Positions 360 to 14,290 of a DNA stretch of 64,000 bases are shown piece by piece (the stretch's first letter is position 1; each line of letters starts with the position of its first letter). The stretch comes from Syntrophorhabdaceae bacterium (GTDB lineage Bacteria > Desulfobacterota > Syntrophorhabdia > Syntrophorhabdales > Syntrophorhabdaceae). The stretch covers positions 1-64,000 of the forward strand of contig JAOAGQ010000071.1 in the NCBI GenBank assembly GCA_026415675.1. Reading direction: 5' to 3'. The notes under the pieces were generated by a model that was not told the origin of the DNA, ran no database searches, and was given only the letters and a program-made list of their open reading frames with translations. A program made the position numbers and the translations under genes.

Positions 360-1346
360 CTATGCTTTCTCACCAATTTTACTTTCCTCAGGATGGTAAG
401 GGTATATAAAGAAGTATTGCCCCAGGCCGAAACTCGTCCCTTTGCCTGTATGGAGGATCTCCCCTGCCTTCAAATACGGCAGAAAAGGTTCGAGGTTGCC
501 GGTATAGACTATCTCCCCTTTGAGCCCTCCCATCTTCATCCTCGTCTTCTGCCTCGTGGAATACCTCTCCCAGTCCCACCATTTCAACCTGTTTTCGTAT
601 ATTCTCACACGCTCCGCCTCTTTAATGATGGATATATGGTCCCAATCGGGGGTCTTTTTTTCACAGTGAAAGTAATAAAGAAGGGCAACCCTTCTCAGAA
701 TATTTTTTATTAAAATGGGAAATTCAAGCTGTGATGTGAGCCTGCGATTATGGGAGATACGAAGGGGGGTTATTGTGCAGAGTTTTACCATATCAGAGTT
801 GTCATTTTTTTCACAGGCGGTGATCGGGTCTTCCGGTATCTCGATCCTTTTCTTTTTTGAAGGTTTGATTGTCCTGTCTTCTATTGAGTAGACGACAGAA
901 TCATCGTTTTTCACAGATTTTAAACTATATTTGCCTCTCCCTTTTCCGATGCCTATCTTTCCTAATTCATCGAAGGTGTAAATAAAGTATGGAACATAAT
1001 CAAGGGCCCTACCAATTAGTATTAAGGTAAAGGAAAATGTCTCTCCCGGCTTAAATACACGTTCTTTTTCAAGAGGTGGCTCGATGACAAAGGGATGGGG
1101 TATTTTTTCGTATTTGTCCATGTGCATGATTTCAGCATCACCCTCTGGGTGCGTCTCAAAGACATAGGCGTATATACATTTTGATGAGAGCATACAATCC
1201 CTGCATTCTCTGTTTTTAAAGGTGCAGACTATTCTCTTAAAGACGTTCCCAAATCCTCCCCTTATGGTTGAACCTTTATAATAGGGCAGAACAAGAGGAT
1301 CAACCGCCTCTACTTCAACGGCAAATCTTTGATATTGTATCTCCAT
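360..1346 (-). CDS. cas6: Cas6 family pre-crRNA endoribonuclease
   Basis: RAMP-fold endoribonuclease that would cut the array transcript inside each repeat, leaving the ATTGCGAC 5' handle. The 328-residue protein resembles the PF10040 Cas6 group. It has an N-terminal RAMP region, a cysteine cluster at about residues 41-57 (C-x7-C-x2-C-x5-C, probably metal-binding), and a C-terminal glycine-rich segment (GKGTSFGLGQ) near residues 304-313 typical of Cas6. It is the last gene before the leader and array, 57 bp downstream of the second cas2. The catalytic residues vary within this family and were not assigned. Confidence 0.85.
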   Translation of the reverse strand: MEIQYQRFAVEVEAVDPLVLPYYKGSTIRGGFGNVFKRIVCTFKNRECRDCMLSSKCIYAYVFETHPEGDAEIMHMDKYEKIPHPFVIEPPLEKERVFKPGETFSFTLILIGRALDYVPYFIYTFDELGKIGIGKGRGKYSLKSVKNDDSVVYSIEDRTIKPSKKKRIEIPEDPITACEKNDNSDMVKLCTITPLRISHNRRLTSQLEFPILIKNILRRVALLYYFHCEKKTPDWDHISIIKEAERVRIYENRLKWWDWERYSTRQKTRMKMGGLKGEIVYTGNLEPFLPYLKAGEILHTGKGTSFGLGQYFFIYPYHPEESKIGEKA

Positions 1347-1403: not shown

Positions 1404-1682
1404 TCACCTCATAAAGATCGATACCCCTTCAGGAATCCTGTCACCACAACCCATAACATAAACTTTTATATCGAAGGGTAGGGGGTATATCCTTATATCG
1501 TCCTCTTTTTCATCGATAATCTCCTTAAGATCCGCCTTTACCCTCTGCAACTCCTGCCAGGTGAAACGACAGTGAAAGACAGAATACTGGATATGGATAC
1601 CCTTTTCTTTTAAATACCTGTATACCCTTCCAAGACGTCTCTCGTCCGCTATGTCGTAACAGATAAGGTAATTGGTGAGCAT
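1404..1682 (-). CDS. cas2: Cas2 (second copy), spacer acquisition
   Basis: 92-residue Cas2-family protein; Cas2 dimers bridge Cas1 dimers in the spacer integration complex. The N-terminal strand ends in the hallmark YDI-(x)4-R-(L)-x2-V pattern (CYDIADERRLGRV), keeping the conserved Asp. It follows the divergent cas1 by 13 bp. This is one of two cas2 genes in the operon; the other (3548-3829) shares the fold motifs but is clearly different in sequence, so this is not a recent duplication. The mirrored gene order suggests it pairs with the adjacent divergent Cas1. Confidence 0.9.
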   Translation of the reverse strand: MLTNYLICYDIADERRLGRVYRYLKEKGIHIQYSVFHCRFTWQELQRVKADLKEIIDEKEDDIRIYPLPFDIKVYVMGCGDRIPEGVSIFMR

Positions 1683-1695
1683 ACATATTCCCCTT

Positions 1696-2553
1696 TTAGT
1701 ATATCTTAACTCTTGTGATTGGTTTAATGCGGATAAGCCTTATCGTTTCAAAGAGACTATCCATTATATTCTCGAGAAGTCTATGGATCAACTTCTTTTT
1801 ATTCTCGAACCGCTCCACCACATTCCTCATACCCTCCCTTGTTAAAACCCATCCTGTTGAACTCTGTATGAGAAGTTCATCTTTCTTTTGAGATTTGAAA
1901 AGCTGTATTGTCTGCAGGTCGCATTCAGGCTCTGTTGCATAAAAGAGGTCGAGCACCATACCGAAATTGTCCCTTCTGTGAATTATACCACAATGGGGGT
2001 CGAGTTCAGACGTCATAATGCTTTTCAAAACCATCTCTCTGAGCATACCTGCTATTATAGAATGGACAGGTCTCCATTGTTTCTCCGGAACAGATACATA
2101 CCTTTTTATAAAGTCGATATAGTCCTGCTCTCTGAAACCCTTTGTGGAAAATACTTTTGCCACGTTTTTTGAAAGTTTATAAACTACTTTGAGTTGCATT
2201 TTTCTCCGCTCGCTTACAAGCCATTGCCTGAATTTCTCTATCCTTTCCTCATGCCTTAGGATCGATTGCTGCTCTTCATAATGGGAGTTTAACTTATGGT
2301 TGTAAGGTATCGTTACGGCGATCTCGTCCCCTCTTTTGTTCATAAATGTAACGGGTATATTGTTTTCCGTAAAAAGGGTGATGCTTCCTGCATCGAGTCT
2401 TACGTTCCCCACAATCACTACATGGCTTATTAACCTTACCGGAATGCGCCTTCCCGATTTCCCATCCTCTTTTATCCATAGGGAAGGTCCATCCCTTGAC
2501 ACTTCAAGCCCCTTTTTTTCGTTAAGGTACAGCGTCCTATCCAAAGAGTCCAT
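1696..2553 (-). CDS. cas1: Divergent Cas1 paralogue, probably catalytically inactive
   Basis: 285-residue Cas1-like protein with an N-terminal beta domain and an alpha-helical C-terminal domain. It keeps the LDP-x2-G-x2-H core (His192) and Asp202. It lacks the glutamate-containing EG-x2-A-x3-YF motif present in the neighbouring Cas1 (Glu176 there), and the acidic residue three positions after the conserved Asp is Tyr205. Two of the usual metal-binding positions therefore appear lost. Its start codon overlaps the end of the canonical cas1 by 17 bp, implying translational coupling. It may be a structural subunit of a heteromeric integrase; this is inference from motif inspection alone. Confidence 0.82.
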   Translation of the reverse strand: MDSLDRTLYLNEKKGLEVSRDGPSLWIKEDGKSGRRIPVRLISHVVIVGNVRLDAGSITLFTENNIPVTFMNKRGDEIAVTIPYNHKLNSHYEEQQSILRHEERIEKFRQWLVSERRKMQLKVVYKLSKNVAKVFSTKGFREQDYIDFIKRYVSVPEKQWRPVHSIIAGMLREMVLKSIMTSELDPHCGIIHRRDNFGMVLDLFYATEPECDLQTIQLFKSQKKDELLIQSSTGWVLTREGMRNVVERFENKKKLIHRLLENIMDSLFETIRLIRIKPITRVKIY

Positions 2554-3541
2554 CGTCTTCCCCCATAATCGTTTTACACAAAAGCCTGACCTCTTCGGTA
2601 AATTTAGGCCTTACCCCTTCGGCCCATTTTTCATATAAGGGATAGAACCTCTGTCTGCCTCCCTTTTTAAGGTAGCAGCCAGGCCTTTCCTTATCCATCG
2701 AGAAATCCCTTGATGTAAATTCCCTTTCTCTGAAAATTGTCCACACAAAATAGTCCACTTCGGGTCTGAATATCTCAACGAGGTCACATGCGAGGGATTC
2801 CCTTCCGTATTCAAATTGATGGTAAAAACCTATTGTGGGGTCGAGTCCTGCCAGTTCAATCTCCCTTACTATTTCGTAGTGGAGCAAGGTGTAGCAGAGG
2901 GAAAGCATGGCGTTTACAGGGTCTTCAGGGGGTCGGCGATTTCTGTTTTTGAAATTGAGGGATTCGGGGAAAAGGGTGGTGTAAGCGGAAAAGTAGGCAG
3001 AGGCTGCGCTTCCCTCATACCCCCTTAAAGAGTTCATAACATCATCAGGGTTTGCCCCCGACCCCTTTTTAATCTCCGATTCTATGGCATATAGATTTTC
3101 TTCGATTTTATCCAACGTGTTGATCGCACTCGTTATCGGTAGTCTCAGTTCTGGCCTCCGGGTAAGACTGTCTTTTAAGAGGTTTGACTGCCCCTTAATT
3201 TTTCTTTTAACGAGTCCATGGGAAAAGATAAGAGAGAAATTGGGGTTGGAGGCAGTATATTTCTCATACTGTTTGATCCTCAATAGGCCGTTGTTGTGGA
3301 GACGACCATGTAACATGCCGTGAAATCTAAGTCTCCTTCCCGAAAGGAAGATAATGGATATATTCTCATCGGCGAGCCTGTTTATGACAGGGGCTTCTAT
3401 GGTGATGTGCCCTATCACAACGACCTTATCAATAGGCCCTATCGGTACCATCCCTTCTCTTTTGCCGTCCATATAGAATGCAAGGGCATTCCCATCGAGC
3501 TTTACGTGGAGGTTTTTTCTATCGATATATACCGTTCCCAT
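2537..3541 (-). CDS. cas1: Cas1 integrase (canonical copy)
   Basis: 334-residue Cas1, the metal-dependent integrase that inserts new spacers at the leader end. The conserved catalytic set is visible: Glu176 in GYEGSAASAYF, His241 in GLDPTIGFYH, and the acidic cluster Asp253/Glu256 in CDLVEIFRP. Length is normal for the family. It starts 6 bp after the first cas2 and overlaps the divergent cas1 by 17 bp, forming a compact four-gene adaptation cassette. No reverse transcriptase domain is fused or adjacent. Confidence 0.95.
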   Translation of the reverse strand: MGTVYIDRKNLHVKLDGNALAFYMDGKREGMVPIGPIDKVVVIGHITIEAPVINRLADENISIIFLSGRRLRFHGMLHGRLHNNGLLRIKQYEKYTASNPNFSLIFSHGLVKRKIKGQSNLLKDSLTRRPELRLPITSAINTLDKIEENLYAIESEIKKGSGANPDDVMNSLRGYEGSAASAYFSAYTTLFPESLNFKNRNRRPPEDPVNAMLSLCYTLLHYEIVREIELAGLDPTIGFYHQFEYGRESLACDLVEIFRPEVDYFVWTIFREREFTSRDFSMDKERPGCYLKKGGRQRFYPLYEKWAEGVRPKFTEEVRLLCKTIMGEDDGLFG

Positions 3542-3547
3542 TTTGTG

Positions 3548-3829
3548 TCATCCTATATAAAAATATGCAGGGTCATGGGGTTGAACCCCGATGCCCAGGG
3601 TATGGGTTCTGCTTCTCCCGTCCATTGTAAATATGTGTATCCTATCTACACTCTCGTCTATAAGTTCGAAGAGGCCATTTTTGACGTAGTCGAGCTCTCC
3701 TGCTGTGAGAAAACATTCATATACAGACTTCTGTCCTCCTGTGGAGTAACCCTTCAAGAAATAATGTACCCTTGAGAGCCTTCTCTCATTTGAAATATCA
3801 TAGGCGATTAGGTATAGATTCCTTTTCAT
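3548..3829 (-). CDS. cas2: Cas2 (first copy), spacer acquisition
   Basis: 93-residue Cas2 with the YDIS-x4-RL-x-V N-terminal motif and a C-terminal beta strand. It is the first gene of the adaptation cassette cas2-cas1-cas1'-cas2'-cas6 and most likely forms the Cas1-Cas2 complex with the canonical Cas1 encoded 6 bp downstream. The 81-bp gap upstream separates it from the lipoprotein gene and contains a GC-rich inverted repeat, so the adaptation genes may be expressed partly separately from the rest. Confidence 0.92.
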   Translation of the reverse strand: MKRNLYLIAYDISNERRLSRVHYFLKGYSTGGQKSVYECFLTAGELDYVKNGLFELIDESVDRIHIFTMDGRSRTHTLGIGVQPHDPAYFYIG

Positions 3830-3910: not shown

Positions 3911-4468
3911 TTATTGAGTATCTACATTTAATGGTCTCATTTTGCCCTTTAAACCTTCGGGAATATCTGTTATAAGGGCAATGGTCAGGCTTTGAGAACC
4001 TCCAGACACAGGTTTTAAGGGCTCAAGGGTATATCCTGCCTCAGAGACATCGAAGGTCCACATCGCCCCTGTCAGAGGGTCGACGATAAGCCATCCTATG
4101 AGTCCGCCGAAGATAAAGTTACCGGCTATGTACCATCCACTTACAGTGCCTTCAATTTCAACCTCTTTTTTCATATATCCTTCTCTTTCAAGTTTAACGA
4201 GGTATTTTGCCGATTTGAAGTAGCCCTTTCCTGTAGGGAGAGTTATAGTAAAAGGGGTCTTTCCGTTGGCAATCTCCTCATTACCCTTTCTTAAATCGAT
4301 GATTTTAATCGTCGCTTCAGGGGGGGACGATTTTATGGTGAGGGTTTGCTCACTCCCTTTTATTATGGAAGCGCACCCTACAAACAAAAAAGGTAAAATA
4401 CATAAAGCCAGCGCATAAAGCAATTTTCTGTTTTTAAATACGATTGATACGTTGAAAAGTGTTTCCAT
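3911..4468 (-). CDS. PEGA-like lipoprotein inside the CRISPR island
   Basis: 185-residue predicted lipoprotein. The start at 4468 is chosen because a GGAGG ribosome site lies just upstream; a longer frame from 4531 has none. An N-terminal hydrophobic segment ends in the lipobox LFVGC at about residues 29-33. After it comes a beta-rich PEGA-like region (TIKSSPPEATIKI ... KTPFTITLPTGKGY) and a Gly/aromatic hydrophobic stretch (about residues 112-135). No cas family matches. It lies between csx3 and cas2 on the same strand and has its own promoter-like region with a tandem direct repeat shared with the DUF2130 gene. The envelope location is inferred from the signal; the function is unknown. Confidence 0.72.
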   Translation of the reverse strand: METLFNVSIVFKNRKLLYALALCILPFLFVGCASIIKGSEQTLTIKSSPPEATIKIIDLRKGNEEIANGKTPFTITLPTGKGYFKSAKYLVKLEREGYMKKEVEIEGTVSGWYIAGNFIFGGLIGWLIVDPLTGAMWTFDVSEAGYTLEPLKPVSGGSQSLTIALITDIPEGLKGKMRPLNVDTQ

Positions 4469-4502
4469 TTCTACCTCCTGTTTTAAATTTTTTATATAGG
4501 AA

Positions 4503-4555
4503 ATTATAAAGGGGCACCTACAGAATTTCACTTAAGGAAACGTTTCAGAAACGTT
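4503..4555 (-). promoter_or_regulatory. Promoter and tandem AACGTTTC direct repeat for the lipoprotein gene
   Basis: On the minus strand two AACGTTTC half-sites are separated by 3 bp (within 4534-4555), an 11-bp period of one helical turn. A TATAAT -10 box follows at 4508-4503, about 35 bp upstream of the start codon. The half-sites sit just upstream of the expected -35 position, which suits an activator or repressor. The same 22-bp arrangement (19 of 22 identical) recurs at 16420-16441 upstream of the DUF2130 gene. Confidence 0.5.
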
Positions 4556-4614: not shown

Positions 4615-4863
4615 TCAATAAGGGCTATGGTCGAATATCACCACATCCCCTGTGACAGGGGAGCGGTATAAAAGGCGGCGTACCTTGCCGTGTAAGGCAT
4701 GGGCGACTTTAAGATAAAGCCATATGGGACCTTGACCTGTGAGTACTACATCGTTTCCCTCCCCAGCTTGGGCAAGGGCTTTTGAAACGTACAAATCGAG
4801 TTCTATAAGTTTTGCATTTCCCGAGTAAAGAGATGAGACATCTATTTCGATTACCATAAGCAC
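4615..4863 (-). CDS. csx3: Csx3 (Crn3) cyclic tetra-adenylate ring nuclease
   Basis: 82-residue protein with the Csx3 signature G-x-GPIWL-x3-(V/L)AH-x2-H at about residues 43-58. Csx3 binds and degrades cyclic tetra-adenylate (cA4), ending type III signalling. It is the third gene after csx1 and can2 in the same direction, 19 bp after can2, so the effectors and their off-switch are co-transcribed. From memory, the Archaeoglobus Csx3 is roughly 25-30 residues longer at its C-terminus (the segment after the SHS motif); here the frame stops right after DHSPY. It could be a natural short form or a truncation. Confidence 0.85.
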   Translation of the reverse strand: MLMVIEIDVSSLYSGNAKLIELDLYVSKALAQAGEGNDVVLTGQGPIWLYLKVAHALHGKVRRLLYRSPVTGDVVIFDHSPY

Positions 4864-4882
4864 TTATAAATTTTTTTTATCT

Positions 4883-6016
4883 TCACAGACCTATCCATTG
4901 GGCTATTTTGTTTTTTAAGTATTTTAAATCGGTACTATCACAGAATGCAAGTTTGTTTGCGGAAAGGCGTGTTTTTTGGGCATCTGTCAATCTCTGGTAT
5001 GAAACGAGCATACCTTTTCCATATATACCCCCTGCAGCATCCCGGAGGCTATCCAGTTTGTAGATCGGTTCATCATTCGATGTTAATCTGTCGGTCCCCT
5101 CAAACCGTTTGGTCTTACATTCTATAAGAAAGAGCCTGTTATTATGTGTGAATACCACATCATACTCGTTCATCGTCTGTCTTGAAGGGACTACATCCCA
5201 TTTTACCTCAACCCCCATTCGCACATCTGTAACGGGGAGGGAGTCTACAATAGAGAAAACATATTCTTCAAGCCACCCTCCTGTTACAAACTCCACACTT
5301 GCAAGGTCGGGAAGCCTTATTCGACCATTCCGATAGTTTAGCATCCCATGTCTTTTAAAAAACTCTATGATAGATCGAAAATTTTCATTTTCATCATCCC
5401 TTGCGTCAACCTTAATTTCAAGGGGGAAGGTTCTTGCGTTTCTAAATGGTGCAACACGACTGTTTAATGTCTTTATCGCATCATGGGTGGATTCCCATAT
5501 GTCTATGAGTTCATTTAAAATGGGGGTATGCATTTTGATGGTATTTTTGTCTGTCTTTTCCTTCAGGATAAACTGCCCGTAAGCATTAAGGTATGAAGGT
5601 ACTTTTAATACACCTTGAAAGTCGAAATATTCGGAAGAGGGGGATAGGGTTTGAATTCTACTATCCTGAGTGTCTACATATATGATTTTTTTTCCGTGTT
5701 CTCTAAACACCTCAAAGGCTGCAAATGCCATTATCTTTGTTCCCCCTGTAGCGTTTAGGATAATCTCATAATTGTTATAGGACGAAAGGATTTCCTTGAC
5801 CGTCTTCCTGGCGGCCTCAAGGTCATAGGGGGATATGGGAACCTTTTCTACAGCGATACCCCATCCTTTTATGACCCCTTCGAGCCTATCTGCCTGTATT
5901 TTCATATCAAGGCTTACAAAAAGGATCACCTTTTCCGGTTTTAGCCCTTCCATTCGGAGGGGGATAAGGTTAGGTATAGGTTGCGCCGATACAAGGCATA
6001 CATGTATGCGTTTCAT
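4883..6016 (-). CDS. Can2/Card1-type CARF nuclease (DUF1887 family)
   Basis: 377-residue effector with an N-terminal CARF domain (ligand motif NATGGTK at residues 88-94) and a C-terminal PD-(D/E)xK nuclease. Visible nuclease residues are Glu250/Glu251 in GGWLEEYVF, Asp286 in NEYDVVF and Glu299-x-Lys301 in LIECKTKR. Members of this family are activated by cyclic tetra-adenylate and cut single-stranded DNA, RNA or supercoiled DNA. It follows csx1 with a 1-bp gap and precedes csx3. All key residues look intact, so an active effector is expected. Confidence 0.9.
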   Translation of the reverse strand: MKRIHVCLVSAQPIPNLIPLRMEGLKPEKVILFVSLDMKIQADRLEGVIKGWGIAVEKVPISPYDLEAARKTVKEILSSYNNYEIILNATGGTKIMAFAAFEVFREHGKKIIYVDTQDSRIQTLSPSSEYFDFQGVLKVPSYLNAYGQFILKEKTDKNTIKMHTPILNELIDIWESTHDAIKTLNSRVAPFRNARTFPLEIKVDARDDENENFRSIIEFFKRHGMLNYRNGRIRLPDLASVEFVTGGWLEEYVFSIVDSLPVTDVRMGVEVKWDVVPSRQTMNEYDVVFTHNNRLFLIECKTKRFEGTDRLTSNDEPIYKLDSLRDAAGGIYGKGMLVSYQRLTDAQKTRLSANKLAFCDSTDLKYLKNKIAQWIGL

Positions 6017-6017
6017 T

Positions 6018-7412
6018 CTAACCCGATTCTTTTAACCATTTTTTTATCAAATCAGTATGTTTTTCTCTGTATTTGAGTATCAATGACCCATTTTCGAACC
6101 TGTACTTGGTGGCATTTAATTCAAATCCTGCATGGGCAAAGAAGTTTCTCTTCTGGGGGGTTGTTTCCTTATAGGCTTTATCTGTATTTAAGACGGAAAA
6201 AAGCTCCCCCCATCCATCCTTCTCATTAACACTTTCTTGTGTTAATTGCTTCTTAAGTTTATCGACCTCGTTTCCGAGGATGATATCGTTTAGAGTAAGA
6301 CCGAATACATCGTATATTTTTTTAAAAGACGCCCTTAAATCGTCTATCGCTGTTCCTGAATCGTTATGTTTATATATGCTGAATTCTTCAAGGAGGGAGG
6401 ATATCCCATAGTAGAAACCAAGGGTTAACAGAACCTTAAGGTAAAGGTCCTTCTTTAGATCAGGGGAGGTGGTAAAATTTCCATAGAGTCGTTTTTTTGT
6501 GAGTTCTATAAACGTCTTTAGTATTGCGAGGATATCGCCTTTTTTTTCATACCCAAACTCACATACGGCAAGGGGGGTATTCTTACTAATCGCCGAATAG
6601 GTCACGATAAAACCTTCAAATATTTGTTGAAGGCTCCTTTTATGATCCCTTTCATCGGGGTAGATGTCCTTTGAAAGGTTATAACTTTCAACATCTCTAT
6701 TGTTTATGGGAGATGAGAACAGTGCCTTTGTCCTCAATGTGTCAAAATGGATGGTATAAGTTATATCTTCAAAGGGAAAGACAGGGTCAGAGAAGGCAAG
6801 AACAATTTCAGGGATCTTTTCCTTATCGTGCCAGTCCGAAAGTTGTAGCCATACCCCGAGCTGCCTTGCCGCCTCAATGAGTGCAGAAACGTAAATGTTA
6901 AACCCGCTTGATATATCTATGATGAATTTTATGGGAACATCAGGATCCGTTTCCAAATATTTTAAATAACGGCCGGTCATATCGAATAGGATTTCAAAGA
7001 AGATGTCCGTATAATGGGAGGAGAGGGAAAGATACTCCTTCCCTGTATAATATGTGCCGATGGAGTGGATGAGGAAGAAATCATCGACCTCTTCGGAGTG
7101 GGGATGATTGTCAAATAAGGGATAAGGGTTTTTAAGGTATTCGTGAGGGTTATCAAGGGCACTTTCTATGTGTTCAGTAAATATCCGAGGGACTGAGGCT
7201 GTAAAAGCCTTATTTTTCAATAAGGTTGCATTTAAAGGGAGACTTACAGGGTAGATCAACACAACAGATGGTCTTTCGTTATTCTCTATAGAATAGTCCC
7301 TAATCGCAAAGGAAGAGAGGGAGGTCTTAAATACCTTTTCATACACTTGAAATGGACGTTCTTTGTAAAAATCGTGGTCTAGCCTTCCAATCTGGTAAAT
7401 GATGAGATTCAT
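6018..7412 (-). CDS. csx1: Csx1 CARF-HEPN ribonuclease
   Basis: 464-residue effector with an N-terminal CARF domain (IIDISSGFN near residues 164-172) and a C-terminal HEPN domain. The HEPN catalytic motif R-x4-H is present as RNFFAH (Arg422 to His427), followed by AGFE as usual for Csx1. Csx1 is a nonspecific RNase switched on by cyclic oligoadenylate, usually cA4, made by Cas10. It is the first of the csx1-can2-csx3 signalling trio, separated from csm5 by about 420 bp that hold toxin-antitoxin remnants. Confidence 0.9.
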   Translation of the reverse strand: MNLIIYQIGRLDHDFYKERPFQVYEKVFKTSLSSFAIRDYSIENNERPSVVLIYPVSLPLNATLLKNKAFTASVPRIFTEHIESALDNPHEYLKNPYPLFDNHPHSEEVDDFFLIHSIGTYYTGKEYLSLSSHYTDIFFEILFDMTGRYLKYLETDPDVPIKFIIDISSGFNIYVSALIEAARQLGVWLQLSDWHDKEKIPEIVLAFSDPVFPFEDITYTIHFDTLRTKALFSSPINNRDVESYNLSKDIYPDERDHKRSLQQIFEGFIVTYSAISKNTPLAVCEFGYEKKGDILAILKTFIELTKKRLYGNFTTSPDLKKDLYLKVLLTLGFYYGISSLLEEFSIYKHNDSGTAIDDLRASFKKIYDVFGLTLNDIILGNEVDKLKKQLTQESVNEKDGWGELFSVLNTDKAYKETTPQKRNFFAHAGFELNATKYRFENGSLILKYREKHTDLIKKWLKESG

Positions 7413-7435
7413 CGGCTTATCTCCCTTTGAAAGGA

Positions 7436-7618
7436 TTACACTCTTTTATACTCCGTTATAATTATAAATTGAGCCAAAAATGCTGCTGTGGCTCCTTTTT
7501 CACGAACCGTTGGTTGTCGATCCCCAATATCTTCAAAAAGTTGTGAGAGTTCATTTACTATTTGGTCAAGATAATCATACTCCAAATCTATTTCATGGCG
7601 GAGTTCATCTGATGTCAT
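7436..7618 (-). pseudogene. Remnant of a HepT-like ribonuclease toxin gene
   Basis: A 60-codon frame matches only the N-terminal helix region typical of HepT-like proteins (HEIDLEYDYLDQIVNELSQL ... ATAAFLAQF). Just after AQF, where family members continue FYNG-(I/V)-EN, the correct reading appears only in another frame (TAT AAT TAT AAC GGA GTA, then a stop). The rest, including the expected R-x4-6-H RNase motif, is absent. It overlaps the MNT-like remnant and lies between csm5 and csx1. The family assignment is by eye and should be confirmed by profile search. Confidence 0.4.
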
Positions 7619-7724
7619 AATATGGTTCTACCCTTTTTTCCATATACATAGTGAACTTGTTTGGAGGGGATGGAGGTATGATATCAACAGGGGTTTGGAG
7701 TTCATCCTCAAGCTTTGCTGAAAA
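7605..7724 (-). pseudogene. Remnant of an MNT nucleotidyltransferase antitoxin
   Basis: Between an in-frame stop and the stop that overlaps the HepT-like start lies a short fragment reading SAKLEDELQTPVDII ... VEPYYDIR. The LE-x-EL-x3-VD(I/L) pattern resembles the C-terminal part of minimal nucleotidyltransferase (MNT) domains. The overlap of its TGA with the next gene's start (7618) is the normal MNT-HepT arrangement. The GS-x10-D-x-D catalytic part is missing. The pair is decayed; it could be a scar of a former defence or addiction module inserted in the csm operon. Confidence 0.35.
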
Positions 7725-7830
7725 TTAATAGAGTTTCCATCCCGGTATGCCAACACGAGAAACTTTATATACATTTATCAACAATCCAGAAAAAGGACAC
7801 ATTGTTTTACTTCACTCAAAATTATAGATT

Positions 7831-9276
7831 TTATTCTTCTTTTATACTTACAATCCTGAATGCATTACCGAAAGGCTCAACAACTATTGTGGCCTTAATT
7901 GCTCTGTCTTTTTTTAATTTAGGCCATAGGTGTTCAGGGACGAATTTATCGTCAATGTGTTCTATGAAAGCCTTCTTACCTTCAACAGTAGTTGTAAGAG
8001 ACTTATTGCCAGGATTGTAGATTATTAATGCATTTGAGATTGTTCTCTCTTTATATTCTTTTTCTACTTTTTCTCTATCCGCTTTGACTTCCTTGACTTC
8101 TGTAAGTTTTTCCTCTTTTTTTTCTGAAAATTCGATATTCTTCTTAGGTGTTGTCGTTATTTGCCTATTGAATAGCCCATCTTTTTGGTCAAAGGGTAGC
8201 ACCTCTAAAACAGCCCAACCAAAGGGTATAAGCCCATTGTTCGTTGTCGGTCGTGGAGTTTCAGAGGCAAGCCATATGGTGGTAGAGTGGTCTAAATATT
8301 TGGAGCTTTTCCCTCTACCCTGCATTATCTTTATACTCCTGTTGCCTTCAATGGTGACTGCTTCCGCGCCTGAATGTCTTCCAAGCCTTACAAGAGAACA
8401 GTTTTCGTTTAGTCTGTTTAAAAACTCCCCACCGTTTATCTTTTTAAAACCACAGGCAATTATAGCTTTCTCTTCGTCATCAAAAATTTTCTTATAACTT
8501 TTATTTGCTGATAGAAATAGAAGTTTCTGGTCTATCTTTATCTTTATCATTGAGTTATCAACAGGGTCAGAGAAATTTATAATACCTTCAAAAATACTAT
8601 CTTTTTCTATGGCTTCAAAAATCTGTTGTGGTCCTGTAGATGCCACTGTATTGAGGGTTGATACCGTTTTCTTTTTATTTACACCGTAATAAATTTTAGT
8701 TCTTACATTGTTGACTGGAAAAAAATCGGATACTTTTACCAATCTAAATGGGTCCGTATCGAATTTACCTCCAAGCAAATTTATCTCGAGATCAACCCCT
8801 TTACCCTTCCATCCTTTAATGCCTTTATTTACAGCCAAAATACTTAAAAAAGCGGTCCTTAACGCCCCTTTCAAAGAACTGCCAGGGATGAATACTTGAT
8901 CTGTCTGTGGGTTATATGCAGTTTTGTTTATAGTAAATTGATTGATGACTCTATTTTTATCATAGGTAGACATGGAGAGGACTTTTTTATAGTGTTCTAA
9001 AAGCCCTGTGGCTATATCGACCTCCTTATGATTAATATTTTCATTGAAATTGTTCTTAACAAATTTGAAAATATTGAGTAAATCATCGCCCATGCATAAT
9101 CTTGAAAACTCATCCCTTTTTTTAGGTTCTAAATTTTTTATAAATTCAAGGGGGTCGAACTCAAGTAGTTTTTTTCTCCTCTCGTCTAAAATAAATGATA
9201 CAGGTTCATATACATCATCGCAGCCAATATGTATGGGTGATAAAACATGGAGTCTTATTTTGATTGGTTTTTCCAT
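7831..9276 (-). CDS. csm5: Csm5, type III-A RAMP subunit
   Basis: 481-residue Csm5, which caps the crRNA 3' end of the Csm complex. The start at 9276 follows a GGAGG ribosome site; the longer frame to 9330 overlaps csm4 without support. Family features are the opening LHVLSPIHIG strand, the glycine loop IPGSSLKGALRTAF (about residues 130-143) and LIPFGWAVLEV near residue 360. About 110 further residues follow: a charged linker (KKEEKLTEVKEVKADREKVE) and a small beta-rich domain ending EPFGNAFRIVSI. The tail is longer than in typical Csm5. The gene starts one base after the csm4 stop. Confidence 0.9.
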   Translation of the reverse strand: MEKPIKIRLHVLSPIHIGCDDVYEPVSFILDERRKKLLEFDPLEFIKNLEPKKRDEFSRLCMGDDLLNIFKFVKNNFNENINHKEVDIATGLLEHYKKVLSMSTYDKNRVINQFTINKTAYNPQTDQVFIPGSSLKGALRTAFLSILAVNKGIKGWKGKGVDLEINLLGGKFDTDPFRLVKVSDFFPVNNVRTKIYYGVNKKKTVSTLNTVASTGPQQIFEAIEKDSIFEGIINFSDPVDNSMIKIKIDQKLLFLSANKSYKKIFDDEEKAIIACGFKKINGGEFLNRLNENCSLVRLGRHSGAEAVTIEGNRSIKIMQGRGKSSKYLDHSTTIWLASETPRPTTNNGLIPFGWAVLEVLPFDQKDGLFNRQITTTPKKNIEFSEKKEEKLTEVKEVKADREKVEKEYKERTISNALIIYNPGNKSLTTTVEGKKAFIEHIDDKFVPEHLWPKLKKDRAIKATIVVEPFGNAFRIVSIKEE

Positions 9277-9277
9277 A

Positions 9278-10306
9278 TTAAACCTCCACAGTAACGGGTA
9301 TATACAGGGAATAACCCTGCATAATGGCACTATCTATAACCTTTGAAATACCTGTGATTGCTCTTCCTATATAAGGTCTTTTTAAAACTACACCGAGATC
9401 TTTTGGTATCATAACAGCCCCTTCGTCTGCCATAAGCACAGGATTTTTAAAAGGGTTTGAAGATTTAGAAAGGACATCGCCGTGCCTGCCAAAACGGGTA
9501 AATGGGGTGAAATAGATGTCTAAAAATGTATCCCTTTCGGGGACACAAGGGGATAAGGTGTAACATGCATTCGGTTTTTTACTCCCTAAATCTGCTAAAT
9601 TAATCTCGTCTACAGAAATAATATTGAATTTTCCAAGTCCTGTAGAGGCATCTTTTCCAAAACCGGTCTCACCGATTCTTTGAAAAGCTTCCGCAATCTG
9701 TTCATGGAGGATATCATCTCTTAAACCAACGTAGATGCTAAGAGTTACATCTTCGTTAAAGACCATCTGTTCGGTGGTGAATGGAGCAAATCTTCCTTCA
9801 CCTGTTGTATTCGTTAGTCGATTGATAGTATTATGGGTCTGGGCAAACTCAACAATAAGAGAGGATTTTCCTCCCCTCCTTGCCTTCTCTACTACCTCAT
9901 TAATTAAAGCATCTGTTAACTCCGATTCAGAAATATAGGTTGCCCCTTTTAACGTGTCTATTCTTTTGGGATATTCCAATTTCAACCATTTTTTAGACTT
10001 TATTGTCTTTCGTTCAGCAATGATGTCCTTTGGATTTTTATTTTCAAAGTTAAATAGTTGAGAAAGGGGCATATCGGGTCTTTTAAAAATTCTTGATACG
10101 TTATCTTTTTTGCCTATTTTGAAAAATGCCGTGGACACAACAAGGAAAGGGTTTTCACTATAGTCAGAGAGCAATCTATCGATGGGTTTTCCAAAGAGTG
10201 TTTCGTCATATGCTGCCTGCCAGCAGACATGACCAAAGAGCGTATCGCCCTTTAGGGGTGTACCGAAACCTGATATGGGTTTTATTGTTATATCGTATAC
10301 TTTCAT
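9278..10306 (-). CDS. csm4: Csm4, type III-A RAMP subunit
   Basis: 342-residue Csm4, the RAMP subunit that holds the crRNA 5' handle and contacts Cas10. It begins with the typical GFGTPLKGDTLFGH segment (residues 14-27), and a glycine-rich RAMP loop (GFGKDASTGLGKF) is at about residues 217-229. The start codon overlaps the preceding 67-codon gene by 4 bp (ATGA), so translation is probably coupled. The csm5 start follows 1 bp after its stop. Confidence 0.92.
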   Translation of the reverse strand: MKVYDITIKPISGFGTPLKGDTLFGHVCWQAAYDETLFGKPIDRLLSDYSENPFLVVSTAFFKIGKKDNVSRIFKRPDMPLSQLFNFENKNPKDIIAERKTIKSKKWLKLEYPKRIDTLKGATYISESELTDALINEVVEKARRGGKSSLIVEFAQTHNTINRLTNTTGEGRFAPFTTEQMVFNEDVTLSIYVGLRDDILHEQIAEAFQRIGETGFGKDASTGLGKFNIISVDEINLADLGSKKPNACYTLSPCVPERDTFLDIYFTPFTRFGRHGDVLSKSSNPFKNPVLMADEGAVMIPKDLGVVLKRPYIGRAITGISKVIDSAIMQGYSLYIPVTVEV

Positions 10307-10506
10307 ATTTCAGCCTCTAAATTGTTCTTATTACTGTTTTTTATTATTTCATCAACACGGGGATCGGGTTCGTCAAGGGCAGATTTTAAGAATGAATGGG
10401 GTCTTATCCTCAGATCTACTTTTTTTGTCGTATTTAGGAATTTCATATCTTCCCCAAACGTATCAAAACCATTACCTAGAGAGACAGTGGCGACTATATC
10501 TTTCAT
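10303..10506 (-). CDS. Unrecognised 67-residue protein between csm3 and csm4
   Basis: A 67-codon gene placed exactly between csm3 (stop 4 bp upstream) and csm4 (4-bp ATGA overlap). This tight spacing argues that it is translated as part of the operon. The sequence begins MKDIVATVSLGNGFDTF and has a mixed charged C-terminus; no signal peptide, membrane segment or known cas family is seen. Possible roles are a small extra Csm-complex subunit or a detached piece of a RAMP protein. Function unknown; a noncoding, purely spacer role is unlikely but not excluded. Confidence 0.55.
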   Translation of the reverse strand: MKDIVATVSLGNGFDTFGEDMKFLNTTKKVDLRIRPHSFLKSALDEPDPRVDEIIKNSNKNNLEAEI

Positions 10507-10510
10507 TACA

Positions 10511-11236
10511 CTATTTTTTAAAAGGATCTAAAGTTTTAAACTGGCTGTCAAAGGCGCTATCTTTTTCTTTAAAATCAAATTCAATCCTTCCATAGCCCCT
10601 ACTTCCATTGCCCCCTAATGCATCCATTTCAAGGAGTTTTAAACCTCTCAATAGATAATCTTGAAACAATCTCTCATCCTCCTCTTTAAGCACTTTAAAT
10701 GTCACAAGGAAATTGAATTCTGTTCCTTCAGGGACACGCTCGATAAACCTGGGATGTTCAGCAGTCCCTTTTATCCTGTCAATCCTGTTTTCTGACTTAA
10801 CCTCAGTGTATGCCCATCTGTTATCTCTTGCCTTTTGTTTCCATGTTTCATCGAGATAGCAATCACTAAATGATACCCTTGTTGGACCATATCCTGTCTC
10901 ATCGTCCTTGTCTGCACCACTACTCCCAAAAATAGTGAGAATTGCCTCGGCATGCCTTTTCAATTCTGGGTTGCCATCAAGTTTATTAACGGTTTTTGAG
11001 GATACAAGACCCCCATCATCGGTTGCAAAAGGAACAAGCCCACAGGCCAGTTCAAGGAGGGAGCGAACCTTTCCCTTTATTGAAGAACCGGGAATATAGG
11101 GCTCAAAAGTATGGGGATGTTTTATAACAGGGCTGTCAGTACCCCCTATATGCATTTCCATGTTACCAGAACCTATATGAAGACCGCTTTTAAGGATGAT
11201 TTTTCCTTGTAGTTTTTTGATAGATATCAGTTTCAT
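10511..11236 (-). CDS. csm3: Csm3, backbone RNase subunit
   Basis: 241-residue Csm3, the repeated backbone subunit of the Csm complex that cuts target RNA every 6 nt. The catalytic aspartate is visible as Asp34 in GGTDSPV, and the glycine loop IPGSSIKGKVRSLLE follows at about residues 49-63. The C-terminal GGNGSRGYGRIEF loop is also normal. Retention of Asp34 predicts working target RNA cleavage. It overlaps csm2 by 4 bp. Confidence 0.95.
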   Translation of the reverse strand: MKLISIKKLQGKIILKSGLHIGSGNMEMHIGGTDSPVIKHPHTFEPYIPGSSIKGKVRSLLELACGLVPFATDDGGLVSSKTVNKLDGNPELKRHAEAILTIFGSSGADKDDETGYGPTRVSFSDCYLDETWKQKARDNRWAYTEVKSENRIDRIKGTAEHPRFIERVPEGTEFNFLVTFKVLKEEDERLFQDYLLRGLKLLEMDALGGNGSRGYGRIEFDFKEKDSAFDSQFKTLDPFKK

Positions 11237-11679
11237 CTTTTACCTCCTTGCTCAATATAGTTTGCGCCTTTTTCGTCATAAAATTTATAAAAACCCATGA
11301 AAGATTCAAAAAAGTTTGCAAATGTTTCAAAATCGTTTATATCGTTAATCTTTTTTATTGAACTGGATATGAAATCTTTAAAATTAATTGAAATTAAATC
11401 TCTACCTAACGCATAGGCAGCCTTTGCATTTAACATTTTTATGAACGGCAAAATCTTCTCAAATTCTTCCTTTTGTTTTTCATCAGGTAAAGTTTTTATC
11501 ATACCGTTAAACCTTAAAACTTCATCATAGAACTTTCTCAATTGAGTTGGCTTATTGGCTTTACCTCTACTTTCTACCTGGTCTTTATAGATTTTTTTTG
11601 CAAGTTCATCTGCTGTCGTTGAAAATAACTCTGCATTAATAATCTTTTTTTCCTTGTCCTTCCAAAAACTTATTTCCAT
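11233..11679 (-). CDS. csm2: Csm2, small helical subunit
   Basis: 148-residue small alpha-helical subunit of the Csm complex, forming the minor filament along the target RNA. The core QLRKFYDEVLRFN and the AAYALGRD helices match the Csm2 family, and length is normal. It lies between cas10 (10-bp gap) and csm3 (4-bp overlap). It ends in a short Gly/Lys-rich tail. No catalytic role is expected. Confidence 0.92.
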   Translation of the reverse strand: MEISFWKDKEKKIINAELFSTTADELAKKIYKDQVESRGKANKPTQLRKFYDEVLRFNGMIKTLPDEKQKEEFEKILPFIKMLNAKAAYALGRDLISINFKDFISSSIKKINDINDFETFANFFESFMGFYKFYDEKGANYIEQGGKR

Positions 11680-11689
11680 AATGCCCTCC

Positions 11690-14290
11690 TTACCTTATAT
11701 TGTATAAAACTTGCCATAACGGTATTTTTAGACCACCGGCATAGTCATTAAGCCATTTTCCTACTTTCATAACCTCATCGATAACGCTATTTTTATCATT
11801 TCCTTTTAGCTTTTTTCCCACATTTCTAACAATCGTATATTTGAGCATCGATCTCCACTTTAGACACTCCATATCCTCTATGCTAACCGTATAGCCTGTT
11901 TTTTGAATCTCCCTCTCCTTTTTTGCCATCTGGATTAAATCATTGATCCTGTATAGCATCGCATTATTTATGAGGCCCCCTTCAAGCCAGTTTTCTAAGG
12001 TTACTTTTATTTCATTAAGCCCATCCAACGCATCCCATCTAACCGTTTCATAGAAAATGGTGACACCGTTTTTACCACTCGATTTTGTCTGGTTAAGGGC
12101 CTTTTCGGATGACTCGGCTATATTCATTACAGGCTCATTGGGTTTGTTTATAGTGACACCTGCGGAAATGGTAATATCTCTATTTTCACAAACATATCTT
12201 CTAAAAGCTTTATTCAAAATATGGGAGAATTCTATTGTCCTATTCCATGGCCCTATGAGAAAGAGATCATCCCCTCCGGCAAAGACCGTATAAATGTCCT
12301 TATACATCTCATTCGTCGATAGGATATTCGGTAAATATATTGTAAAAAAATTGTTCAATTGTCTACTTAGAGTTGAGAGTCGGGAAAATGTCTGCAGTTC
12401 CTTTTTAATGCCATGGGAGAATATAAGCCCAAGGTTATCGATATCTGCCTTTAAAACTCCGAGGGCTTCAATGCCTTTAAATTTATCAGGTTTGTCCGTA
12501 AATTGTAGAGCCTTTTTCGCTATGGCAAGAAATGTTTTTGGGTATTTGTTTTTAATTGAATCGATTAACTCTAACCTAGTCTCGTCTTTCTTTTTTCCAG
12601 CAAGTAGTCTATCATCGTAGTTATCTTCATCTTCATATCTTGGAATGTAACCGTTTATGAATTTAGATGTAATCTCCTTTGACAGTTTTCCATCTTTACT
12701 AATACCTACATTCCAGTATTTCAACAGTTTCCCTGCTTTTGCCAGTTCGTTTAACTTACCATCAACATCGAATGAGACCTGATAGAAACCAAAGAGAGGC
12801 TCAAGGAGGCTGTCGCCTTTGAAATCAACATCGGTTGTTCCTATGGCGATCTTGTCTTCTTTTACCAAGTGCTCCCCTATATATATCTGGTCACGGCAAA
12901 TTTTACATGCATTTTCCTCCATATCTCTTGATATTTTTACGCCAGCTTCTCTATAGGATGGTCTTTTACCGCAGAAGGGGCAGAGAGGGTGATTTAAGGT
13001 ATTGTTAAAAGAATCGAGGTAGTCCTTAAAGACGCCGGCATGATCTCCTATATCAAATTTTTTATATTTCTTCTCATCAATAAACCTCTGTAAATTTTCC
13101 CAAAAGGCAGGAAAATTATTAGATACAAAATCATTACAGGACGCCTCCATGTATGCTATCCCGATGGAGGATTCTCCGTAAAAATTATCGATGAGCCATC
13201 TGTTCATCATCTCCGATACCTTATCTATGCGTCCCTTTGTTTCTTTTGTATTGGGTGCAATTAAAGTAAACCTCCCTGCCGCATTCAATACAATGGAAGA
13301 AGATGGTATGCCTATCTCTCTGCAGAGCATATCTGCGGCAAGTTCAGTAAGGAGGGATACGGTAAATGATCTACCCCTTAACAATTTTGCGGATGCCCTA
13401 CCTGTTGAACCACCCCCTGTGAAGATGAAATCCTGGATACCGTAAAAGTTACCGCTTACGACTAAAAATTTATTTTCGCTGTAATCTTTTATACTCTCTT
13501 CTGTTAAACTGCCTCTCTCTTTATGGTATAGATAAATTGCCGATGCAAAAGCGGATGTCATCTTTGAATGGTCGAAAAGAGAGACATCGGGGATTACCCT
13601 TCCCACTGTAGCCGCAGGTATGGAGGATCCAAATATCAAGAAAAGGTTTTCAAAGTGTTCAAACCACAGAGGAATGCTCTCTCTATGCCATAGCGCGGCG
13701 AGAGCTTTTATAAATCCTTCAAAGAGTCTTTTGTATTCATCCTTTGCCTCTTTATCGGTTAAGTGTTTTGCTTCTTCTTCTGATACAGGAAAGATATTTT
13801 GAGGTGATAATTCCCTAAGGGGATAACTGTAATTGAAAGAGTTCATGTTATCCTTCCACTTCTCATTCAATGAAACCTCTTCCAATATTGGTAACAATCT
13901 TGTTTTGAGATAATCCTTTGCTAATAGTTCTTGATTGTATTCTTCAAACTCTTTCCTGTCGAAACCACTGCTTACCCTGTCGGCAATGGCTATTATCCAT
14001 TGTAGAGGTGTTTCTGGTTTATGATGCATTGCAGTAAGATTAATAAAAGGATCGCCAAGCCCCCAAACTGCCTTATTAAATTGTATTGGTAAATCTTTCT
14101 CATATTTTTCAATGAAAGCTGCAGTATATAAGGCATGTTTATGGGTATATCTATTATTATAATATGGCTGATATAGCCCTGAGTTATTCTCCATATATTC
14201 CTTGCTTACAGGCATATCAGCCCTTTCTGCAAACTTTCCTATGTCATGCAAAAAGCCTGCTATGGCTATCTTATAAACTGTATCGTCCAT
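11690..14290 (-). CDS. cas10: Cas10/Csm1, signature subunit of type III-A
   Basis: 866-residue Cas10. An N-terminal HD nuclease domain keeps His15-Asp16 in LHDIGKF (single-stranded DNA cleavage). A zinc-binding pair of Cys motifs (CPFC ... CKIC) lies around residues 437-470. The Palm2 domain has the GGDD motif at about residues 672-675 (FAGGDDLFL), required to make cyclic oligoadenylates from ATP. A helical C-terminal domain follows. Both activities look intact. It is the first gene of the csm operon and is divergent from the phd/relE pair across a 180-bp intergenic region. Confidence 0.96.
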   Translation of the reverse strand: MDDTVYKIAIAGFLHDIGKFAERADMPVSKEYMENNSGLYQPYYNNRYTHKHALYTAAFIEKYEKDLPIQFNKAVWGLGDPFINLTAMHHKPETPLQWIIAIADRVSSGFDRKEFEEYNQELLAKDYLKTRLLPILEEVSLNEKWKDNMNSFNYSYPLRELSPQNIFPVSEEEAKHLTDKEAKDEYKRLFEGFIKALAALWHRESIPLWFEHFENLFLIFGSSIPAATVGRVIPDVSLFDHSKMTSAFASAIYLYHKERGSLTEESIKDYSENKFLVVSGNFYGIQDFIFTGGGSTGRASAKLLRGRSFTVSLLTELAADMLCREIGIPSSSIVLNAAGRFTLIAPNTKETKGRIDKVSEMMNRWLIDNFYGESSIGIAYMEASCNDFVSNNFPAFWENLQRFIDEKKYKKFDIGDHAGVFKDYLDSFNNTLNHPLCPFCGKRPSYREAGVKISRDMEENACKICRDQIYIGEHLVKEDKIAIGTTDVDFKGDSLLEPLFGFYQVSFDVDGKLNELAKAGKLLKYWNVGISKDGKLSKEITSKFINGYIPRYEDEDNYDDRLLAGKKKDETRLELIDSIKNKYPKTFLAIAKKALQFTDKPDKFKGIEALGVLKADIDNLGLIFSHGIKKELQTFSRLSTLSRQLNNFFTIYLPNILSTNEMYKDIYTVFAGGDDLFLIGPWNRTIEFSHILNKAFRRYVCENRDITISAGVTINKPNEPVMNIAESSEKALNQTKSSGKNGVTIFYETVRWDALDGLNEIKVTLENWLEGGLINNAMLYRINDLIQMAKKEREIQKTGYTVSIEDMECLKWRSMLKYTIVRNVGKKLKGNDKNSVIDEVMKVGKWLNDYAGGLKIPLWQVLYNIR

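Follow-up and report, generated by a model that had tools for sequence, protein, structure and literature searches.

The 64,000-nucleotide stretch of Syntrophorhabdaceae DNA analysed here, which we call the window, carries a compact CRISPR adaptation cassette on its minus strand (1404-3829), whose four genes are transcribed in the order cas2B-cas1-cas1'-cas2A, with cas6 and a CRISPR array after them. First comes cas2B (3548-3829; 93 aa; Pfam CRISPR_Cas2, 56 bits), then cas1 (2537-3541; 334 aa; Pfam Cas_Cas1, 258 bits), which encodes the catalytic partner Cas1 with E176, H241, D253 and E256 intact, then cas1' (1696-2553; 285 aa), whose product is a Cas1-fold pseudoenzyme without an intact metal site, and finally cas2A (1404-1682; 92 aa; Pfam CRISPR_Cas2, 72 bits). 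By their ORF coordinates, the 3' end of cas1 and the start of cas1' overlap by 17 nt (2537-2553, minus strand). Each of the four ORFs scores above the Pfam cut-off for Cas1 or Cas2, and the order cas2-cas1-cas1'-cas2' proposed in the first-pass annotation, together with its coordinates and overlap length, is correct. This is not the canonical module of one cas1 and one cas2, since there are two of each, from distinct clades. We looked for a further Cas1 in the genome beyond this pair and found none, and the cassette of the window contains no reverse transcriptase.

The neighbourhood is that of a type III-A system, with Cas10/Csm1, Csm2, Csm3, Csm4 and Csm5 all present. Directly downstream of the cassette lies cas6, encoding the crRNA-processing nuclease (360-1346, minus strand; Pfam CRISPR_Cas6, 64 bits), and beyond it the end of an array (27-133) in which two 36-nt repeats (27-62 and 98-133) flank a 35-nt spacer before the contig end cuts it off; other loci of the cassette have related repeats, with AAGGGATTGCGAC or AAGGGATTGAGAC at one end. 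Upstream, the effector and signalling genes (4615-14290, minus strand) encode a Csx3-like protein, a Card1/Can2-like nuclease, Csx1, Csm5, Csm4, Csm3, Csm2 and Cas10. The three accessory genes among them are consecutive (4615-7412), encoding the Csx3-like protein, the Card1/Can2-like CARF nuclease and Csx1, so this one locus has two cOA-activated effectors along with what may be a ring nuclease. A gene whose 206-aa product has a PEGA domain and begins like a lipoprotein (3911-4531, minus strand) separates the signalling genes from cas2B.

That Cas1' is a member of the Cas1 fold is clear. Its AlphaFold2 model (pLDDT 90.7) finds as its best match in the PDB 4xtk, the Cas1 protein TM1797, with a TM-score of 0.77 by query length, and the best 50 matches listed are all Cas1 or casposase. 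The sequence profiles show how far it has diverged, in that it scores well above the Pfam cut-off (72.7 vs 22.3 bits) but, unlike a canonical Cas1, falls under that of NCBIfam TIGR00287 (60.9 vs 71.7 bits). What it has lost is the metal site. Aligned to the Thermotoga maritima protein TM1797, Cas1' carries Lys138 in place of the motif glutamate, whereas Gly139 and Tyr145 survive from the EG-x5-Y motif. In the model, two short helices (129-138 and 142-152) are separated by a break at the site equivalent to Glu176 of Cas1, whereas in the model of the partner Cas1 (pLDDT 88.4) a single unbroken helix (165-190) runs through Glu176.

The orthologues tell the same story in a more general way. Position 138 is occupied by 13 residue types and is Glu in just 4 of 35 sequences; His192, Asp202 and Tyr205 are present as annotated, but position 192 is His in only 21/35 and so is not conserved, and position 205 is acidic in 3/34. 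The three metal ligands (Glu, His and Asp or Glu) occur together in none of 35-38 Cas1' orthologues, and Cas1' itself lacks the set. Glu142 could, in an alternative register, have been a hidden metal-site glutamate, a candidate that we rejected because the Nitrospira clade does not conserve it. Because every orthologue lacks an acid at one or more of the metal sites, the earlier call of a 'probably dead' second Cas1 comes out strongly supported, with the site lost in every orthologue examined. The partner Cas1 is quite the opposite: the quartet Glu176/His241/Asp253/Glu256, correctly named from the start, is invariant in all 31 sequences that cover the four positions, and in 29/29 of a subset.

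A survey of genomes for the pair, which the first-pass annotation had put forward as a check, reveals how tightly the two proteins are linked. A search with six orthologues returned 28 named loci, from Syntrophorhabdus and other 'Deltaproteobacteria', Thermodesulfovibrionia, Nitrospira and one organism labelled Deferribacteres. Across the window's phylum and Nitrospirota, 57 of the 58 genomes with a partner-type Cas1 carry Cas1' in the same locus. The window's phylum contributes 11/11, the eleventh (G265) being counted through a contig-coordinate match to the inspected G1051 locus; among 396 Nitrospirota genomes, 47 have a partner-type Cas1 and Cas1' adjoins it in 46, of which 44 were found by profile and two very diverged cases (G626 and G466) by inspection. 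The one exception, G606, has cas2B-cas1-cas2A (L163:5446-7190), its cas1 and cas2A just some 40 bp apart and no cas1' in between. Conversely, Cas1' was seen without an intact Cas1 in a decayed locus (G508) and at the ends of contigs (G689 and G276). Wherever the flanks are complete the order cas2B-cas1-cas1'-cas2A is kept, and the complete cassette is found in a genome assembled as a single contig of 2,003,803 bases (G595), although the genomes surveyed are mostly metagenome assemblies in which some cas1' copies are interrupted. Conservation in dozens of genomes excludes chance, and the recurrence of the four-gene set in two bacterial groups implies that the dead Cas1' is being maintained and is no relic. 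A single-protein scan of genome contigs and a plasmid search returned no relatives, nor were any found in viral contigs. As a curiosity, two loci (L068 and L069) have two other genes inserted between cas1 and cas1'; in the former (L068:6000-9295) one encodes NE0113-type (CARF) and adenosine deaminase domains and the other is a second NE0113-family CARF gene.

The trees of the pair also match. Each of the two proteins, Cas1' as well as its catalytic partner, forms a single clade (supports 100 and 99), and among the pairs compared their distance matrices show the highest correlation (r=0.92), against 0.89 for Cas2A-Cas2B and 0.81 for Cas1'-Cas2A. For six Nitrospira pairs with intact frames, dN/dS is 0.11-0.14 (about 0.13) for cas1' and 0.12-0.19 for cas1, and hence cas1' is under the same purifying selection as its catalytic partner. 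What differs is where the constraint falls: mean pairwise identity in Cas1' is 47% in the N-terminal domain vs 29% in the C-terminal domain, while the partner Cas1 has 56% and 53%, and judged by these values the constraint on Cas1' is shifted to the N-terminal domain. The overlap of cas1 and cas1' is usually longer elsewhere than in the window, measuring 26 nt in 19 of 30 loci, with nearly all other overlaps in the same relative frame. This conserved arrangement points to translational coupling rather than any set ratio; the 'fixed stoichiometry' originally read from it goes too far.

The two Cas2 proteins belong to separate, distinct clades. The cas2A orthologues often overlap cas1' by 4 nt, whereas cas2B forms a conserved clade found beside the partner Cas1 or, in Nitrospira, about 12 kb away. 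We considered that Nitrospira might have lost cas2B, and rejected the idea: in two genomes the gene lies upstream on the same contig with about 12 kb of other genes between it and cas1, so that both Cas2 paralogues are kept, and in others it was found on another contig or at a contig start. The intervening DNA includes a divergently transcribed ORF of 2249-2354 aa (L154:2637-9386 and L158:3216-10280), for which the copy tested (L154/L048) gave no Pfam or PADLOC match.

How might a dead Cas1 be of use? In an ordinary integrase, two Cas1 dimers surround a Cas2 dimer, with each 3' end held in one Cas1 subunit (PMC6614799), and the repeat is contacted by the non-catalytic Cas1 (PMC6895254). We think it probable, if well short of certain, that Cas1' serves a heteromeric spacer integrase as its dedicated non-catalytic subunit. 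The two Cas1 roles at each end of the ordinary complex, one subunit with its active site on the 3' end and the other not catalysing, would here be split between two genes, such that the partner Cas1 would carry out the strand transfers and Cas1' would occupy the non-catalytic place, as a Cas1-Cas1' heterodimer formed via the conserved N-terminal domain. The retention of two Cas2 clades suggests a mixed core, probably of one Cas2A and one Cas2B. The heteromeric integrase had already been raised as a possibility in the first-pass annotation, and it has since gained indirect support from strict linkage, matched gene trees, the second Cas2 and the conservation shift; the complex itself, including direct contact and assembly of Cas1 with Cas1', is what we infer from these sequence patterns. 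Some observations pull the other way. In G606 the partner Cas1 perhaps functions alone, unless a Cas1' has escaped detection at another place in that genome; matched trees would also follow from plain joint inheritance of an operon; and conservation of the N-terminal domain could be due to DNA binding, with no dimerisation involved.

The same mirrored gene order can be read quite differently, with cas2B paired with cas1 and cas1' with cas2A, so that Cas2B with a homodimer of Cas1 would be joined to Cas2A with a homodimer of the dead Cas1'. Orientation would then be set by the dead half, docked at the leader or on one flank of the repeat, while the catalytic half would make one strand transfer and something else would complete the second. 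Two distinct Cas2 clades would suit such an arrangement of unlike halves, but it offers one catalytic end only, whereas full integration requires a strand transfer at both sides of the repeat, two in total (PMC12259127), and the distance correlations are highest within the Cas1 pair and within the Cas2 pair, not between Cas1' and Cas2A, so we regard it as unlikely. Alternatively, Cas1' might work beside the integrase, as a prespacer chaperone, a leader-binding substitute for a host factor or a brake competing with Cas1 for Cas2. A dead paralogue from the same operon could indeed titrate Cas2 or DNA, and translational coupling would suit a dosage-dependent regulator; against this, the near-universal presence of Cas1' and selection as strong as that on Cas1 suggest a required part over an optional modulator, and we found no added DNA-binding domain in the protein, which leaves this role quite unlikely in our judgement.

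Could Cas1' be active after all, through a site rebuilt in its C-terminal lobe from His187, Asp202 and Glu250? The residues are certainly well kept among 38 aligned Cas1' sequences (His187 in 32, an acidic residue at 202 and Glu250 in all 38). However, Glu250 is probably structural, because it aligns with a glutamate that is nearly invariant in ordinary Cas1, the LDPH motif is lost in the most diverged orthologues, and the remainder of the C-terminal lobe drifts, as its low identity attests, all of which makes a rebuilt site very improbable. Finally, we give next to no credence to the notion of a decaying, functionless duplicate. Catalytic residues have been lost and a few genomes carry interrupted copies (L033, L040 and L157), but the frames are intact in nearly all loci, selection is not relaxed in the Nitrospira pairs and Cas1' is conserved across two phyla; co-occurrence, distance correlation and dN/dS led us to reject a pseudogene.

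It is worth asking how the cassette compares with what is already known. With the canonical Cas1-Cas2 module (PF01867/TIGR00287 and PF09827) it has in common the folds, one intact Cas1, the Cas2 proteins and the linked Cas6, CRISPR array and type III-A effector; it departs from that module in its doubled genes, with a second Cas1 paralogue that has no metal site and a second Cas2 paralogue, in the order given above. The type I-F Cas1-2/3 and type I-C Cas4-Cas1-Cas2 complexes are alike in being Cas1-Cas2 integrases that act on a prespacer and a repeat, and among Cas1 proteins of solved structure that of type I-C is most closely related to our partner Cas1, but both complexes differ from the cassette in relying on a single Cas1 gene. 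The type I-F complex is C2-symmetric (PMC12259127), so the source of any asymmetry there must be the DNA or some protein other than a second Cas1. Type III adaptation is likewise served by RT-Cas1 and Cas6-RT-Cas1 fusions, yet these belong to a separate Cas1 branch, and the cassette has no reverse transcriptase. Two related genomes (G001 and G042) have long Cas1-containing frames of the size of an RT-Cas1 fusion.

Closest in name is the PADLOC profile PDLC01185, 'Cas1, diverged variant, second in the loci', which has no function attached. The name fits a diverged second Cas1, and in the window's genome the profile matches Cas1' and not the partner Cas1, but only weakly (30 bits over positions 1-113 of 246); across Cas1' loci it gives about 20-37 bits, 59.8 bits at best, over the N-terminal half only. 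These scores are too low to claim a single family, and the profile was probably not built from the Cas1' clade. Its existence nevertheless means that curators had already noticed a diverged second Cas1, probably from a related clade. In the open-access papers searched we found no description of a duplicated, inactive, diverged or tandem Cas1 of this kind; an apparent 'diverged Cas1' in PMC12669027 is actually 'diverged Cas10'.

The broader appeal lies in a puzzle that all integrases share. Known Cas1-Cas2 integrases use identical copies of Cas1 that nevertheless perform different jobs, and even when the machine is symmetric the spacer must go in the right way round. The C2-symmetric type I-F integrase faces exactly this orientation problem (PMC12259127). 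The Cas1/Cas1' cassette appears to separate the two Cas1 jobs genetically, so that each could be removed or mutated alone, which a single Cas1 gene does not allow. The cassette may also be relevant to spacer orientation in type III systems, since an unlike pair of Cas2 proteins would make the integrase asymmetric and could help to orient new spacers. This is the most speculative part of our proposal, and to have the asymmetry of a mixed Cas2 core orient spacers amounts to a guess; the fuller idea, in which split catalytic and structural Cas1 genes on a heterodimeric Cas2 core form a built-in asymmetric integrase that orients type III spacers, is tentative and, in our own estimation, rather doubtful. 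That Cas1' chooses orientation or prespacers, as the first-pass annotation suggested, is a hypothesis in the same vein. On the subject of prespacers, one locus (L155:4317-8562) has, directly upstream of cas2B, an SbcD-like phosphoesterase gene and an SbcC/Rad50-like ATPase gene, whose products are possible prespacer-processing nucleases.
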